From positions 186,001 through 250,000 of the forward strand of contig JAIQGL010000004.1 of NCBI GenBank assembly GCA_020072585.1: a DNA stretch of 64,000 bases. Direction: 5' to 3'. Shown one piece after another: positions 13,261-20,704 of the stretch (positions within the stretch are counted from its first letter, which is position 1; each line of letters starts with the position of its first letter). Position numbers and translations under genes: made by a program. The stretch comes from Terriglobia bacterium. GTDB taxonomy: Bacteria; Acidobacteriota; Terriglobia; Terriglobales; Acidobacteriaceae. A model generated the notes under the pieces. That model saw only the letters and a list, made by a program, of their open reading frames with translations. It was not told the DNA's origin and searched no databases.

Positions 13261-16200
13261 TTATCCCTTACCATTCACGTCCATGCTCGCCCAAGTTTCA
13301 TACATTTTCCAGCGGGCGGCGACGTCTCCCTGGGCCAGTTCCAGCAGCTTTTTGGCCTCTTCAGGGTGCGACTGGCGCAGCATGGTATAGCGCGTTTCAT
13401 TGTAAAGATATTCTTCCAACGGTACAGAAGGCGGTTTGGAATCGAGTTGCATGGGGTTCTTCCCCGAAGCCGCCCGGCGGGGATCAAAACGGAACAGCGG
13501 CCAATGCCCGGACTGAACTGCAAGCTTCTGCTGGTCCAGACCATGGGTCATATCAATGCCGTGCGCAATGCAATGCGCATACGCAATGATCAGCGAAGGC
13601 CCCTGGTACGCTTCCGCTTCATTGAAGGCTTTGAGGGTCTGCATATCGCCCGCGCCCATGGCCACGCGAGCCACGTAAACATCCCCATAAGTCATGGCCA
13701 TCAGCGCCAGGTCCTTTTTGGGTGTCGATTTGCCGCCTGCGGAGAATCGAGCCACCGCTCCGCGAGGCGTGGCTTTTGAAGTCTGCCCACCGGTATTGGA
13801 ATAAACTTCGCTATCCAATACCAGGATGTTCACATTCTCGCCGGAGGCGAGCACATGGTCCAGGCCACCATAGCCGATGTCATACGCCCAGCCATCGCCG
13901 CCAACGATCCACACATTGCGCTTGACCAGCGAATCAGCCAGCACCAGCAAGTCACAGGCATCCACGTTGTCAGGGCTGAGCCGCAAGATCTCCTTGAGCA
14001 ACTCCACTCTTTCGCGCTGCTGATGGACCCCGGCTTCATTGGATTGGTCGGCCTCAAGCAGCGCCTTTGCCAGTTCGCCCCCAATCGTGCCGCTAAGGCG
14101 CTTGACCAGAGCGAGCGCGTACTCCTGGTGCTTGTCCTGCGCAATGCGGATGCCCAATCCAAATTCGGCATTGTCTTCAAACAGTGAGTTCGCCCAGGCG
14201 ATGCCCCGGCCGTCTTTGTTGAACGTGTAGGGCGTAGTGGGCAGGTTGCCGCCGTAAATCGACGAGCATCCGGTAGCGTTGGCGACGATTGTGCGCTCGC
14301 CGAAAAGCTGTGTCATCAGCTTGATGTAAGGCGTTTCACCGCAGCCGGAGCAGGCGCCGGAAAACTCAAAGAGCGGCTGCAGGAGCTGCACGTCTTTCAC
14401 CTGGCCGAAGGAGAGCTTCTCGCGATCAAATTCCGGCAAGCTGAGGAAGAACTCCCAGTTCCTTACCTCACGCTCGCGAACAGGAGGTTGTGGGACCATG
14501 GCGAGCGCTTTGTGGTTCACGTCTGTTTTGCTCTTCGCCGGACATACATCCACACACAATGTGCAGCCTGTGCAGTCTTCTGGTGAAACCTGAAGCGTGT
14601 ACTTCATCTGCCCCAGGTCTTTCCAGCGGGCGGGCGCCGAGAGAAATGCTTCAGGCGCTTCTGCAAGCTTGTCGGCGTCATAGACTTTGGCGCGGATCAC
14701 CGCATGCGGGCATACCAGCACACACTTGCCACACTGTATGCAAAGCTCCTTGTCCCACTCAGGAATCGCGAGCGCGATGTTCCGTTTCTCCCACTGCGCC
14801 GTGCCGGATGGGAATGTGCCGTCGATAGGCAGCTTACTCACGGGAAGAAAATCGCCATTGCCCTGAATGATGGGGCCTATCACGTCGCGCACAAACCCGG
14901 GCGCCCATGCTGGAACCGGAGCCTGGAGATCAAAGCGGCTGAACACATGGTCCGGCACTTTAACCTCAATAAGATTTGCCAGCGTCTGGTCGACCGCGGC
15001 AAAATTCTTCTCCACCACGGCCTCACCGCGCTTTCCGTATGTTTTGCGAATAGCGTTTTTAATGGCTGTGACCGCCTGCTCTTTAGGCAGCACGTTGCTG
15101 ATGGCAAAGAAGCAGGTCTGCATGATGGTGTTGATACGTCCGCCCATGCCGGTCTCGCGGGCCACCTTGGAGGCATCAATCACGTAAAATTTGAGTCCCT
15201 TGCCGACAATCTCCTGCTGAATGGTAAGCGGCAGGTTTTCCCAAACCTGTTCCGGCCCGAACAGGCTGTTTAGCAGGAACGTGGCGCCCGGCTCAGCGAA
15301 TTTCAAGACGTTCAGCCGCTCCAGAAAGGCAAACTGGTGGCAGGCGACAAAATTCGCCCGGGTGATGAGATAGCTGGAACGAATCGGTTTAGGACCAAAA
15401 CGCAGATGCGAGGTGGTCATCGATCCGGCCTTCTTCGAGTCGTAAACAAAATATCCCTGGGCGAACAGGTCGGTGTCTTCACCAATGATCTTGATGGAAT
15501 TCTTGTTGGCGCCCACGGTCCCGTCCGCCCCCAGCCCGTAGAAGAGGGCGCGCACCGTATCCGGCTCTTCTGTGGAATACGCGGGATCGTAGTCGATGCT
15601 GGTATGGGTGACGTCATCGACAATGCCAACCGTGAAATGCCTCCGGCTCTCCTCTTTGACCAGTTCTTCAAACACGCCACGCACCATGGCGGGCGTAAAT
15701 TCCTTGGAAGAGAGGCCGTAGCGCCCTCCAATCACTTTGGGCATCGGCTGCACCAGGTGCGTTGACTGCGACTCAGCTTCACTCAGCGCGGTGACAACAT
15801 CCGTGTACAACGGCTCGCCCACGCTGCCCGGCTCTTTGGAACGGTCCAGCACAGCTATGGCTTCCACCGTGGGTGGCAGCGCCTGTATGAAGTGCTCAAC
15901 GGAGAAGGGGCGGTAGAGCCGCACTTTGAGCACTCCGAATTTGGCTCCGCGGCGGTTGAGATGATCAACCGCCTCTTGCGCTACCTCTGCGCCGGAGCCC
16001 ATAAGTACAAGAACTTGTTCTGCATCAGGAGCGCCAACATAATCAAACAGCCTGTATTGGCGTCCGGTGAGCGCGGCAAATTTATCCATCACGTCCTGCA
16101 CGATGGTCGGCGCCGCCAGGTAAAAGGGGTTGGCTGCTTCCCGCGCCTGGAAGTAAACATCAGGATTCTGCGCGGTGCCGCGGATGAAGGGATGCTCCGG

Positions 16201-16830
16201 CGCAAGCGCTGTCTGCCGGTGCCGGCGCACCAGTTCATCACTGATCATGGCCTGCATGTCTTCGATCGCAAGCTGTTCAACCTTGGCGATCTCATGCGAG
16301 GTACGAAAGCCGTCAAAAAAATGCACAAAAGGAAGTCGCGACTCCAGCGAAGCGGCCTGTGCGATCAGGGCAAAGTCCATCGCCTCCTGGACGGAATTGG
16401 CCGCCAGCATCGCCCAGCCCGTCTGGCGCACAGCCATTACATCCTGATGGTCGCCAAAGATTGAGAGAGCATGCGTGGCCAGCGAGCGCGCGGCAACGTG
16501 AATCACTGCCGGCGTTAGCTCACCAGCAATCTTGTACATATTAGGAATCATCAGGAGCAGGCCCTGGGCAGAGGTAAACGTGGTGGAGAGAGACCCGCTC
16601 TGTAAAGCGCCATGCAAAGCGCCCGCAGCGCCGGCTTCACTCTGCATTTCCACCACCCGCGGCACTGAGCCCCAGATGTTAGGCCGCCCTTCCGACGACC
16701 ATTGGTCAGAGAGTTCACCCATCGTGGAGGATGGAGTGATGGGATAGATAGCAATGACCTCATTGGTCTTGTGCGCGACATAGGCAGCAGCTTCATTGCC
16801 GTCAATGGTGACTTTGGCTCGTTTTATCAT
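13261..16830 (-). CDS. nifJ: Pyruvate:ferredoxin (flavodoxin) oxidoreductase
   Basis: Oxidises pyruvate with CoA to acetyl-CoA and CO2 and reduces ferredoxin or flavodoxin. The single chain of about 1189 residues has all PFOR domains in order: N-terminal domain I (IDGNEAAAYVAHKTNEVIAI, YPITPSSTMGE), the CoA/transketolase C-like region, the gamma domain, two [4Fe-4S] clusters in CIQCGKCVLVCPHA (about residue 696) and CTGCTLCVDVCPA (about 751), and the TPP domain with CSGCGETPYIK (about 826), GDGWAYDIGYGGLDH (about 975) and SNTGGQTSKATPRGA. The ATG at 16830 fits the family N-terminus; the open frame continues to a TTG at 16899 and no strong ribosome binding site decides. The reductase gene follows it, and a CRP-like palindrome lies upstream. 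Confidence 0.94.
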   Translation of the reverse strand: MIKRAKVTIDGNEAAAYVAHKTNEVIAIYPITPSSTMGELSDQWSSEGRPNIWGSVPRVVEMQSEAGAAGALHGALQSGSLSTTFTSAQGLLLMIPNMYKIAGELTPAVIHVAARSLATHALSIFGDHQDVMAVRQTGWAMLAANSVQEAMDFALIAQAASLESRLPFVHFFDGFRTSHEIAKVEQLAIEDMQAMISDELVRRHRQTALAPEHPFIRGTAQNPDVYFQAREAANPFYLAAPTIVQDVMDKFAALTGRQYRLFDYVGAPDAEQVLVLMGSGAEVAQEAVDHLNRRGAKFGVLKVRLYRPFSVEHFIQALPPTVEAIAVLDRSKEPGSVGEPLYTDVVTALSEAESQSTHLVQPMPKVIGGRYGLSSKEFTPAMVRGVFEELVKEESRRHFTVGIVDDVTHTSIDYDPAYSTEEPDTVRALFYGLGADGTVGANKNSIKIIGEDTDLFAQGYFVYDSKKAGSMTTSHLRFGPKPIRSSYLITRANFVACHQFAFLERLNVLKFAEPGATFLLNSLFGPEQVWENLPLTIQQEIVGKGLKFYVIDASKVARETGMGGRINTIMQTCFFAISNVLPKEQAVTAIKNAIRKTYGKRGEAVVEKNFAAVDQTLANLIEVKVPDHVFSRFDLQAPVPAWAPGFVRDVIGPIIQGNGDFLPVSKLPIDGTFPSGTAQWEKRNIALAIPEWDKELCIQCGKCVLVCPHAVIRAKVYDADKLAEAPEAFLSAPARWKDLGQMKYTLQVSPEDCTGCTLCVDVCPAKSKTDVNHKALAMVPQPPVREREVRNWEFFLSLPEFDREKLSFGQVKDVQLLQPLFEFSGACSGCGETPYIKLMTQLFGERTIVANATGCSSIYGGNLPTTPYTFNKDGRGIAWANSLFEDNAEFGLGIRIAQDKHQEYALALVKRLSGTIGGELAKALLEADQSNEAGVHQQRERVELLKEILRLSPDNVDACDLLVLADSLVKRNVWIVGGDGWAYDIGYGGLDHVLASGENVNILVLDSEVYSNTGGQTSKATPRGAVARFSAGGKSTPKKDLALMAMTYGDVYVARVAMGAGDMQTLKAFNEAEAYQGPSLIIAYAHCIAHGIDMTHGLDQQKLAVQSGHWPLFRFDPRRAASGKNPMQLDSKPPSVPLEEYLYNETRYTMLRQSHPEEAKKLLELAQGDVAARWKMYETWASMDVNGKG

Positions 16831-16946
16831 GCATTTGGCATGGGGCCGACCATTTGTGGGTGCTTTTTTGGAAGGCCCCATTCCTCTCACTTGCGTCAAA
16901 GGACGCTTGGTTACCTTCCATCATCACGTACGCATGTGACGTTGAA

Positions 16947-17051: not shown

Positions 17052-19082
17052 TTAATTTTTTCCCTGTTCGGACATTTGCGGCTCTTCAACCCTGATGGTA
17101 GGCCCGGAGGATACCTGCACCCGCAAGTCCGGGTCGCGCTCCATTGCATCCAGTATCTCGCGCGTGATCCGGTTGTCGATCTCGCCTGAATTACCCATTT
17201 CCACGGGATAACGAATCACAATTTCCAGCGAGGTCTGCGTGAGGTGCAGCCGGCTCTCTGGAGCAAAGGTAGCGAGCGTAGAGTTCAAGGAACGTTCCAC
17301 ATTGCGCCTCTGCATTTCCATTTTGTCGCGATACTCGGCAAAGACCTTGTTGACTGCCTCCATCATGCGCTGCTCGACCTGGCGATAGTTGCTCTTGGCA
17401 TCCAGTGTGAGAGTGATCTCATGCCAGAGGAAATTCGTGCCGGGAATCTGCTTGAACATGCCTGAACTGGCCTGGAACACCACGGCGTTGGAGAAAGCGA
17501 CCACGCGTCCAGTGGGCAGAGGCGCCGGGCCGCCTGTAACTTCCATCAATTGCAGCCGTACCAGGCCAACATCCACTACATCGCCGGTCACTCCCGCAAT
17601 CTGCACCCGGTCACCCACCCGCACGCCATACTTGCCGATCAGGAAGAAATAGCCGGCAATCGAAAGAATTACGTTCTGTAGCGCAACAGCAATGCCTGCC
17701 GTCATAAGCCCGGCAAAGGTGGTGATGGCGCCAAGTTCGCTGGCAAAAGCGGTGGCCACGATGATGGCAATCAGGAACCAGAGCAGGATCCGGCGGATCA
17801 GAAGAAACTGGTAACGGCGGCGCGTGTCAGTAATGTAGCGGAACGTGGCGCGCCGCCAGAGTTCAGAGACGCCCAGGACTACCCCCACAATGAATGCCAG
17901 ACCCACCAGCCGTAACAACAGGCCCTTCATTTCCGCCTGATACTGGCTATCTACGGCGTTGCGCCAGTTCGTGGTGGTGCGTTTGTAAACGTCCAGCAGA
18001 ATGTTCTGCTTGCCCAGCGGCAGCAGGCTGGCGGAAAGCTGCTTGAACTGGGCCGTGAGTCCATCAAGAGTTTTTCGCTGCTGGGCCAGCACGACCGGGT
18101 CCTGTGAGTCGGGTTGTCCCACCAGCTCGTCGCCGTGCTGAGTCAGCTCTCTGATCTTTGTGATTAGCGGCGTGCGCAGGTTCTTGGCGGTCTGCGTCAG
18201 GAGCTCAGTCTGGTGGATGTTGTCTTCCAGCGCGCGCAGTTTGCGTCTGAGCGAAAACAGGTCCGTTGCCAGCGAGAGAATACCATTGGGAGCTTCCTTG
18301 CGCTCCCGTGACACGGTGGTGGCCGAACCGTTCGCCGCTTGCGGGTTCGTCTCCTGCTCTTTGCTGCTGGGCACAGCAGCAGGGACCGTACGCGTCAACT
18401 CCTCCACCTGTGAGAGAAGATTGCCGGAGTTCGATCCATTGGCCGAGGCACCAACAGCAAACTGCAACATGTTGCGCAGGGCGTCACGTCGCGCCTGGAA
18501 CAACTCCAGTTCGCTGTCAACCTCATCAATGGCCGCCAGTACAGTCCTGCGTTTACTGCCCGTTGTGCTGGGAAGTTGCAGATGCAGTGAATCCAGCTCC
18601 TTCTGCGTTTCCTTTACCTTTTGCTCCGCTTTGGCAACGGAATCAGCCAATCTCTGGTATTGCGAGAGCGCTGCCTGTGGCTTTCCGCCCTGTCCCGATT
18701 CCGGCTGAGCAGCCAGCGCTTGCGCCCGCGCCCGGGCAAAATCAAAGGCGAGCCGTACAACCTGATCGGCAATGCGCCGGCTGTCATTTAGAAACAGCGC
18801 ATCACTCGGATCATTCACAAGTTGCTCCTGCGCGCTGAGTTGTCTTGACCAGACAATGGTCTGGTTAAGAAATGGAATGATCTCGTCTGCGCCAGATGCG
18901 GAAGCGGTAGCAGCTCCGGCTGACGGAGTTGCACTGCTTTGGGCGCCAGCGTTTTGGGCGCTACCGCTTTGGGCGCCAGCGTTTTGTGTGTTGCCCAGGA
19001 CAGCAGCAAAAACAAGGCCCGCCCACACGGCCAAAACGAGCTTCGGAATTTTCAGAGTTATGGCTCCTCTTGTTATGAACAC
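17052..19082 (-). CDS. MscS-family mechanosensitive channel with large N-terminal coiled-coil domain
   Basis: A protein of about 676 residues: signal peptide, a low-complexity Ala/Gly/Ser/Gln linker (QNAGAQSGSAQNAGAQ), a long periplasmic coiled-coil region, three or four membrane helices from about residue 400, and the MscS pore and beta domains. MscS hallmarks are the pore helix LITTFAGLMTAGIAVALQNVI written here as AITTFAGLMTAGIAVALQ, and GKYGVRVGDRVQIAGVTGDV with LVRLQLMEVTG. It should open on membrane tension. The start is unclear: GTG codons at 19082 and 19136 lack ribosome binding sites, while AGAGGAG stands 8 bases before a CTG at 19055. It is downstream of, and separated by a terminator from, the lysine-rich micro-gene. 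Confidence 0.85.
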   Translation of the reverse strand: MFITRGAITLKIPKLVLAVWAGLVFAAVLGNTQNAGAQSGSAQNAGAQSSATPSAGAATASASGADEIIPFLNQTIVWSRQLSAQEQLVNDPSDALFLNDSRRIADQVVRLAFDFARARAQALAAQPESGQGGKPQAALSQYQRLADSVAKAEQKVKETQKELDSLHLQLPSTTGSKRRTVLAAIDEVDSELELFQARRDALRNMLQFAVGASANGSNSGNLLSQVEELTRTVPAAVPSSKEQETNPQAANGSATTVSRERKEAPNGILSLATDLFSLRRKLRALEDNIHQTELLTQTAKNLRTPLITKIRELTQHGDELVGQPDSQDPVVLAQQRKTLDGLTAQFKQLSASLLPLGKQNILLDVYKRTTTNWRNAVDSQYQAEMKGLLLRLVGLAFIVGVVLGVSELWRRATFRYITDTRRRYQFLLIRRILLWFLIAIIVATAFASELGAITTFAGLMTAGIAVALQNVILSIAGYFFLIGKYGVRVGDRVQIAGVTGDVVDVGLVRLQLMEVTGGPAPLPTGRVVAFSNAVVFQASSGMFKQIPGTNFLWHEITLTLDAKSNYRQVEQRMMEAVNKVFAEYRDKMEMQRRNVERSLNSTLATFAPESRLHLTQTSLEIVIRYPVEMGNSGEIDNRITREILDAMERDPDLRVQVSSGPTIRVEEPQMSEQGKN

Positions 19083-19203
19083 TATTGAAATTGTACGTGA
19101 AGCCCAGATACCACTGCATGCAAAGCGATACAGCACGGCCGATGCAGGGGAGCATTTTCAGGGGATCAAGATGGGTTAGAGCTCTGGGGCAAGCAAGAAG
19201 AAA

Positions 19204-19223
19204 GGGTGTTCCGATGAACACCC
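19204..19223 (-). terminator. Rho-independent terminator after the lysine-rich micro-gene
   Basis: A perfect 8-base stem (GGGTGTTC / GAACACCC) with a 4-base loop, followed on the minus strand by TTTCTTCTTG. It ends the short transcript that starts near 19410. Confidence 0.75.
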
Positions 19224-19278
19224 CGTCATAACTATTTTCCCTTGTAAAGTTTCACGGAGACTTGGCTCCGCGAGTCAG

Positions 19279-19323
19279 CTACTTTTTCTTCTTTTTCTTG
19301 GCTGCTTTTTTCTTGGTTGCCAT
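19279..19323 (-). CDS. 14-residue lysine-rich micro-ORF with complete expression signals
   Basis: The frame reads MATKKKAAKKKKKK and then TAG. Nine or ten of 14 residues are lysine. AAGGAGG, a near-perfect ribosome binding site, lies 10 bases before the ATG. A TTGACA promoter element lies upstream at 19442-19447 and a rho-independent terminator lies 55 bases past the stop, so the unit is a self-contained transcript of roughly 200 bases. A second small hairpin (CGGAG / CTCCG) sits just after the stop. The peptide resembles the basic tails of histone H1-like or HU-like proteins, but I recognise no family. The alternative is a regulatory small RNA in which the reading frame is incidental; the strong ribosome binding site argues for translation. 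Confidence 0.6.
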   Translation of the reverse strand: MATKKKAAKKKKKK

Positions 19324-19418
19324 AATTGAAATGCCTCCTTAGAAGATTTGAGTCGCTTTGGAGCCCTGTCTCACTTTCGTAGCCCAACGAGTGGTACCGT
19401 TGTCTGTCTACATACAAG

Positions 19419-19447
19419 ATATTGATGTACCCGTGTAGCAATGTCAA
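19419..19447 (-). promoter_or_regulatory. Promoter of the lysine-rich micro-gene
   Basis: A perfect -35 element TTGACA (19442-19447 on the complement) is followed after 17 bases by CAATAT as a weak -10. The predicted leader to the ATG is about 85 bases. Confidence 0.45.
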
Positions 19448-19561: not shown

Positions 19562-20704
19562 TTATTTGTGCGCCGGCTCCGCCGCTTCAGAGAATGCCGT
19601 ATTTTTGTTGAAGCAGAAATCAACAAACTCCGGGGTGTAGCGCTTACTGATTTCGGCTGGAATGTCGGGCAGTTTGATCTCTTCAAACTTGAAATCAATC
19701 GAGCCGTCAGAGTGAACAGTCCCCAGCATGAACCCATAAACCTTGGTGCGCGCTTCTTTCGCGCGGGGCGCATCGGGTGGCAGCGCGTAGCGTACTGCGC
19801 CGGCGGTGCCGACAATCCAGCCGGGCAGTTCACCGCCGTGGGCTTTCCAGGAATCAGAGTTGAAAATACCGCTTATATAAAAGTGCGAGTGGCTGGCCAG
19901 CAGATAGACGTTCTTCTGCGTCTGCTTCTTGAAATTCAAAAGATCGGTATAGACGCGGCGTCCGCTTTCAGCGCCTATCGACCAGTCATTCATGCTGTGG
20001 CCGCTGGCCAGGCTGTCCGGCAGTGCAGCGTGCATTCCCACTACCAGCGCGCGCACTTGAGGATTGGCGGAGGCGCGCTGCACTACGGCTTCCAGCCAGC
20101 TCACCTGCTCCGGCGAGAATTGATCGTGGGTGGCGTTATCAAGGTAGATAAAATCCACGCCACCCTGAATCCAGTGGAAATACGTTGCCGGGGCCGTGTT
20201 TTGGGGATTGTCCGCAAGCCGCTGCTGTTTGAGCGGCGGAGAATCCAGCCACTTGGCAAATTTTTCGGCAAACTGTTCCCGGGTCTTGGGCGGGGTGGTT
20301 TCATGGTTGCCGATACCCACAAACACAGGCATGGAGCCAAACGGGACAATCTGACTCTGGATAAAGTCATCCCAGGCGTCTTTCAGGTAAGCGTCTCTCT
20401 CCACGGTCTTGCCCCGATGTTCCGGGCTATGCTGATAGTCCTCATCCGCGGCGTAGATAGCGCGCAAGTCACCCAGATGCCAGTAAAACGCAGCGTGATC
20501 TTTTTGGGCGCCTGCGGCAATCGCGGGCATAACCACGTCACCACAGTTGCGCGAATCGCCTGACACCGCGAAATTCCACGGCTGGTCGCTAGCGGCCGGC
20601 TTATCGTTGGCCGTTTTATCGGCGGGCTTGGGTTGAGCCGCGGCTGCGCAGTGGACGGCAATGATAAAGACAATCAGAAGAAAGAATCTCTGGCTTCCCG
20701 GCAA
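19562..20704 (-). CDS. Exported calcineurin-like metallophosphoesterase
   Basis: A 380-residue secreted phosphoesterase with a signal peptide (IVFIIAVHCAAAA). The metallophosphatase motifs are in order: AVSGDSRNCGD, WHLGDLRA, VFVGIGNHET, VGMHAALPD and LASHSHFYIS. These supply the Asp, His and Asn ligands of a dinuclear metal site. Substrate is unknown. The start is a TTG at 20702-20704 with GAGGG 5 bases upstream. The gene stands alone; the 3' end lies 115 bases from the promoter of the micro-gene on the same strand. Confidence 0.85.
   Translation of the reverse strand: MPGSQRFFLLIVFIIAVHCAAAAQPKPADKTANDKPAASDQPWNFAVSGDSRNCGDVVMPAIAAGAQKDHAAFYWHLGDLRAIYAADEDYQHSPEHRGKTVERDAYLKDAWDDFIQSQIVPFGSMPVFVGIGNHETTPPKTREQFAEKFAKWLDSPPLKQQRLADNPQNTAPATYFHWIQGGVDFIYLDNATHDQFSPEQVSWLEAVVQRASANPQVRALVVGMHAALPDSLASGHSMNDWSIGAESGRRVYTDLLNFKKQTQKNVYLLASHSHFYISGIFNSDSWKAHGGELPGWIVGTAGAVRYALPPDAPRAKEARTKVYGFMLGTVHSDGSIDFKFEEIKLPDIPAEISKRYTPEFVDFCFNKNTAFSEAAEPAHK

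Follow-up and report, generated by a model that had tools for sequence, protein, structure and literature searches.

The window analysed here, a 64,000-nucleotide stretch of contig C3 (genome size 6.9 Mb), carries on its minus strand a 14-codon open reading frame, MATKKKAAKKKKKK, which sequence comparison places as one member of a widespread family of genes for Lys/Ala peptides of 12-41 residues. We read the unit, with a probability of about 0.6, as an autonomous micro-gene encoding a polycation that would act by its charge and bind a polyanion, most likely DNA or RNA.

On the minus strand, the unit opens with a -35 element TTGACA (19447-19442), read in the sequence and followed, after a spacer of 17 nt, by the -10-like CAATAT (19424-19419), which opens the block CAATATCTTGTRT and is not among the elements listed by a consensus promoter scan of the window. 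Both hexamers are present in 8/8 genus units, a set collected through DNA similarity, independently of these motifs. In the alignment of the leaders that we call type B, to which the window unit belongs, the invariance of both is by construction, since these leaders were trimmed at TTGAC and the type was defined by AATATC/AATATG. In the matches of the type-B leader model outside its training set, CAATAT occurs in 21/29 and CAAAAT in 5 others, the model itself favoring the motif. The putative 5' untranslated leader (19324..19418, with an inferred start) is kept in 7/8 genus relatives and includes a Shine-Dalgarno (SD) sequence, AAGGAGG, read at 19340-19334. The frame itself, read from ATG 19323 to TAG 19279 (19279..19323) and under codon-level selection in related frames, is followed by a hairpin, CGGAG-CCAAGT-CTCCG (19255..19270), also recognized by eye in genus relatives, then by an element conserved in these relatives, AAGGGAAAATAGTTATGAC (19225..19243), and by a rho-independent terminator with a T-rich tail (19195..19224), whose stem GGGGTGTTC-ATCG-GAACACCCT occupies 19224-19203. 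The first-pass annotation had described a promoter element, an SD sequence, a 14-codon frame and a perfect terminator on a single strand, and had named no -10 element. All four are found where it placed them, but "perfect" is slightly generous for the terminator, because the stem of 9 pairs includes one G-T pair and the T-rich tail is interrupted. An element similar to the conserved one, CAAGGGAAAAT, lies 5' of the SD sequence in many other type-B units and 3' of the frame in the window's genus.

Among the window's ATG frames of 10-30 codons, MATKKKAAKKKKKK alone reaches 50% Lys, and 60 second-order Markov copies of the window contain no such frame. Folded as a single sequence, the unit is modestly more stable than its shuffles (z -1.86; 7/200 shuffles as stable). 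A second start in the 3' region, an ATG after AAGGGAAAATAGTT, was considered and rejected, as it is absent from the relatives G002 and G003. The gene at 17052..19136 on the same minus strand, which had been taken for an mscS homologue, does encode an MscS domain (PF00924, E 8.6e-06); we judge it to lie outside the unit. The upstream neighbor (19562-20704) looks metallophosphatase-like by eye (GNHE) and matches no Pfam family at E 0.001, and 13261-16899 encodes a single-chain pyruvate:ferredoxin oxidoreductase.

Using a 351-base region as DNA query, we found matches in 29/61 genomes, the window's own counted. The unit is present in 7/8 genus relatives. The similarity begins near the promoter and ends near the terminator, split into two segments in G003, and every one of the 7 retains a Lys-rich frame, 14 or 16 codons long; G005, which is 81% complete, has just the second of the two unit types described below. 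A ten-codon pattern matched in 17/61 genomes at 21 places, corresponding to 20 frames of 13-19 codons and one 237-residue protein, and in 24/399 genomes of the class; a relaxed version matched in 66/150 genomes of the window's family, with some matches that are not short frames. The same patterns run backwards as a control gave 0 matches in the sets of 61, 399, 150, 6, 177 and 193 genomes. The collected loci comprise 127 distinct frames, of which 117 have no more than 19 residues and 10 have 24-237; further work was done on 115 of the 117 short ones, leaving out L064 and L053. Lys-rich proteins of 160-165 aa with a similar N-terminal motif (L104, L108, L109, L073) occur in genomes of the same family.

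Related units recur throughout soil Acidobacteriota, and the distribution extends beyond that phylum. A 16-residue pattern with stop was matched at 21 loci in 84,980 species genomes, by title 15 acidobacterial, 3 Chloroflexi, 1 Verrucomicrobiales, 1 Woesearchaeota and 1 other bacterium, and at none in viral contigs. Of these loci, 20/21 look free-standing, while the remaining bacterial one forms the end of an open frame some 376 codons long; a contig of Candidatus Angelobacter sp. Gp1-AA117 carries the same peptide. The copy in the metagenome-assembled genome titled Woesearchaeota (L059 / L176) has a bacterial-type SD sequence, and its contig is possibly misassigned. Pattern matches were present in 20/177 genomes of the class of one Chloroflexi locus and in 16/193 of the class of one Vicinamibacteria locus, giving 50 distinct frames: 44 complete ones of at most 24 residues, 4 of 25-41, one 510-residue protein and one cut by a contig end. 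Most related frames are preceded by an SD-like purine run, as read at their loci. In several Chloroflexi copies, AGGAGGTGATC, which is complementary to the 3' end of 16S rRNA, precedes the ATG. Chloroflexi copies (L190-L192, L197, L200, L201, L204, L206, L207) have a long SD sequence and, by eye, a common 3' stretch, GGCACCTTTCGCGA...CCGATCCGC, before the terminator. Tandem pairs of peptide genes about 160-245 bases apart (L178, L215, L219/L225, L222) are seen in the class of the Vicinamibacteria match, and two Lys-rich frames of 30 and 32 residues (L214, L221), ending in ACIGPG and GCIFEG, are unlike the others and possibly represent another gene.

Sorting the 115 short frames by motif gave 43 of type A, defined by terminator and SD sequence, 56 of type B and 16 others; because these motifs define the types, their constancy within a type partly follows from the sorting. 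The window's genome also has a type-A unit, MATKKKAKKKAKKK (L102:3001-3045, that is, G000 contig C23, 51736-51780), which is convergent with an RmuC gene. Counting mechanical frames of at least 90 codons, the next gene is convergent in 37/43 type-A loci and on the same strand in 41/56 type-B loci, the latter counting against an autonomous micro-gene. Type A usually adjoins a thiolase or CPBP-like gene (the latter by eye) and a convergent UvrD/RecB-like or RmuC gene, families that were tested on single representatives. Type B lies upstream of a MerR-type gene family in 27 loci (one member tested) and of an MscS-like gene in 5 genus loci. The proposed link of the unit to mscS is thus not borne out, the MscS-like neighbor being common to 5 loci only, all within the window's genus. 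A regulon sharing the promoter motif TCAATATCTTGTGT was also considered and rejected: with one mismatch allowed, 9 genus genomes gave 14 places, 7 of them at a window-type unit and the other 7 scattered with no common context seen, and the backward control gave 5 places.

We then asked what follows the leaders when these are modeled with coding sequence excluded. Model R1, built from 37 type-A 5' leaders, matched in 128/150 family genomes at 130 places, leaving 22/150 family genomes with no type-A match, and in 82/399 genomes of the class, 81 of them in the window's family. Of the 130 places, we read 60 untrained ones and the best 30. Among the untrained places, 57/60 are followed by a Lys-rich frame, often of 19-30 codons (for example MATKKAAKKPAKKAAKKAAKKK), one runs off its contig and two have lost the frame; among the best 30, many of them training loci, the frame is present in all. 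Model R2, built from 42 type-B leaders and holding no base pairs, matched in 80/150 family genomes at 81 places, with no type-B match in 70/150. Here we read 29 untrained places, with a Lys-rich frame in 24, and the best 30 of 81, many of them training loci, with the frame in all (29 by script and one by eye). Leader-model matches include two single-contig genomes of 4,127,356 and 5,650,368 bases, and comparison of the two match lists shows both leader types in 72/150 family genomes.

The first-pass annotation had proposed looking for relatives that keep the hairpin and lose the frame. The frame is present at most of the untrained matches of either model, and RNA signals with a lost frame were found in few genomes, in five units: G181 and G200 (type A) and G154, G173 and G449 (type B), the last three having SD-like and terminator-like stretches yet no frame. 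A weak R2 match in G476 also has no frame, and the one in G459 looks like chance. Read by locus, the five frame-less units (L376, L377, L362, L364 and L366) have promoter, SD-like and terminator-like stretches; four of them lie in genus g50.

A synonymous-rate analysis, also suggested at first pass, was run on related type-A frames. The 57 frames reached through R1 provide 17 disjoint pairs of equal length with 110 differences, of which 82 are synonymous, where 24% would be expected; in the other two reading frames the same pairs have synonymous shares of 13% and 6%. The p-value of this test is nominal, since the frame taken was the most Lys-rich near each leader and the paired species are related. 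An earlier substitution test (98/131 synonymous versus 22% expected) is biased because its frames had been selected by an amino-acid-like pattern. Together with the frames found behind the leader models, the synonymous excess indicates that the peptide is under amino-acid-level selection, and a non-coding RNA role alone is therefore unlikely. The RNA by itself, once offered as the possible functional product, was set aside as the main explanation on the ground of this codon-level selection and survives inside the dual-function alternative discussed next. The comparison shows a conserved, self-contained coding unit in which length may change (12-41 residues) while the Lys/Ala make-up stays steady; this fits the translated tiny frame first proposed.

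The alternative that survives best is a dual-function RNA, in which a regulatory sRNA would double as the mRNA of the peptide and would persist as RNA alone in some genera; we consider it unlikely, while giving it more weight than any other rival. It draws on the type-A leader, which forms two predicted hairpins 5' of the SD sequence with compensatory changes: 94.7% of alignment cells pair, and 7/9 pairs change on both sides. No shuffle out of 500 scored as high, although 23/500 did on the count of further pair types, and slid versions of the alignment score worse. An earlier covariation count took in the terminator that had been used to choose the type; the figures given here are for the leader hairpins alone. 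The type-A terminator stems are also more uniform than a plain terminator needs, with GGGACGC/GCGTCCC after 32 of the 57 R1-reached frames, a variant after 23 and none seen by script after 2; in the related frames at large, a terminator-like stem lies 3' of most but not all. Finally, nothing speaks more strongly against a peptide-only view than the units, mostly of genus g50, that have lost the frame and retained RNA signals: in these five units the peptide would be dispensable and the RNA may matter. Against a dual-function RNA, the 42-leader model of type B holds no consensus base pair, plain mRNAs can also have structured leaders, and the peptide is the stable part: leaders and terminators change from type to type and from phylum to phylum and look unrelated across Terriglobia, Vicinamibacteria and Chloroflexi, where the peptides resemble one another. 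Rfam 15 gave 0 matches in the window at gathering score, and for 9 member loci searched up to E 5 the sole match was ClpQY_promoter (E 1.7), below gathering score. Acido-1 RNA (RF01686), a structured RNA of Acidobacteria that the cited part of PMC2864571 considers probably not cis-regulatory, differs from the window unit in this respect, as no Rfam model matches the window at gathering score.

The preferred reading of a charge-acting polycation rests on the make-up of the peptides. The 140 distinct peptides, 12-41 residues long, contain on average 56% Lys+Arg (41-83%) and 25% Ala; acidic residues occur in 2 and aromatic residues or Cys in 2. Beyond the start, 29/140 contain L, I, V or M, which counts against the polycation reading. 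As a set, the peptides show the Lys-rich, Ala/Pro-containing, acid-poor low complexity of histone H1-like or protamine-like sequences. That composition is conserved whereas length and residue order vary suggests a disordered polycation that acts by charge, probably one resembling a protamine or an H1 tail and acting on nucleic acid or another polyanion. Transcribed from the unit's own promoter, an mRNA of roughly 220 nt would carry a strong ribosome site and end at the unit's own terminator, and ribosomes would translate it into a disordered polycation of 14 residues. The peptide would then neutralize or bridge a cellular polyanion by charge and not by fold, most likely DNA or RNA (in the nucleoid or the ribosome) and less likely polyphosphate. 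With 14 residues, it may be too short for stable binding.

Two groups of known proteins resemble these peptides in make-up, which does not imply kinship. The C-terminal KPAA repeats of AlgP/AlgR3 and PhaF of Pseudomonas are likewise Lys/Ala/Pro-rich, of low complexity, H1-tail-like and variable in repeat number; according to PMC9239181, AlgP keeps polyphosphate granules spaced, and peptides made of its KPAA repeats bind DNA in vitro. In those proteins, the repeats make up a region of 154 residues within a larger protein that also has a helical N-terminal domain, whereas the whole product in the peptide family described here is mostly 12-24 residues long. The chlamydial H1-like Hc2 (HctB) and its relatives in Bordetella and others share Lys-rich units and size variation, and the cited part of PMC2848022 describes DNA binding by Hc2 and a size that varies with the number of Lys-rich units; Hc2, however, has 165-237 residues, and the likeness is one of composition. 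Searches of NCBIfam and Pfam up to E 10, with family-model scans covering members of at least 20 aa, gave no match for three longer members (20, 24 and 41 aa). A search of the open-access literature, also with the peptide strings as search terms, listed no paper on this peptide; catalogues of small open reading frames or antimicrobial peptides in supplements may hold such peptides.

Very small ribosome-associated proteins such as eL41 and bTHX exist, and a peptide this short and very basic, with a strong SD sequence and a type-A unit in so large a part of the family (128/150 genomes), could in principle have a similar role on rRNA. We regard this as quite improbable, as the peptide varies in length and sequence, the two copies stand under different promoters in 72/150 genomes, and a PDB sequence search with one 20-residue member returned 0 matches among solved structures.

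A leader peptide that would control the downstream gene by stalling on Lys codons or by reinitiation is far less probable still. Consecutive Lys codons ahead of a terminator form the classic arrangement of an attenuator, one-amino-acid-rich short frames before a terminator are shared with attenuator leader peptides and reinitiation leader genes, and the part of PMC4833913 cited here describes short leader genes in many phyla, Acidobacteria included; the same-strand genes after most type-B units fit this as well. Attenuator leaders nevertheless differ in having a constant downstream biosynthetic gene: no constant same-strand gene for the amino acid concerned was found, the mostly convergent type-A neighbors are evidence against a leader or attenuator, and the type-B neighbors differ by lineage, MscS-like in the 5 genus loci and of the MerR-type family in 27 others. 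In addition, no lysine gene is seen in the few representative flanking genes identified, the terminator intervenes before the downstream gene, and the reinitiation distance of 10-11 bp given in the cited part of PMC4833913 is absent at the window. A secreted antimicrobial peptide, suggested by the small size and cationic character, is equally implausible, with hydrophobic and aromatic residues almost absent, no room for a signal peptide and, in the few flanking genes identified, none for export or immunity.

Lys-rich tails that bind nucleic acids are known; what is new here is a conserved free-standing gene this small with its own promoter and terminator. Prodigal-type gene callers discard genes shorter than about 90 nt, and the claim that such callers miss the frame agrees with both this limit and the comparative data. 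Such polycation genes would thus have been overlooked because callers discard frames so short, the product falling under the size that annotation pipelines usually report. We suggest, tentatively and at somewhat less than even odds, that these free-standing genes for polycations of 12-41 residues, maintained by amino-acid-level selection in Acidobacteriota and present too in Chloroflexi and one Verrucomicrobiales genome, encode dedicated chromatin- or ribosome-conditioning proteins that are among the smallest of their kind. The type-A leader, present in 128/150 genomes, suggests that almost every member of one acidobacterial family has the gene. Should the gene be expressed, few conserved autonomous protein genes would be shorter, and its presence raises the question of what role a bare polycation of 12-20 residues plays in a bacterium.
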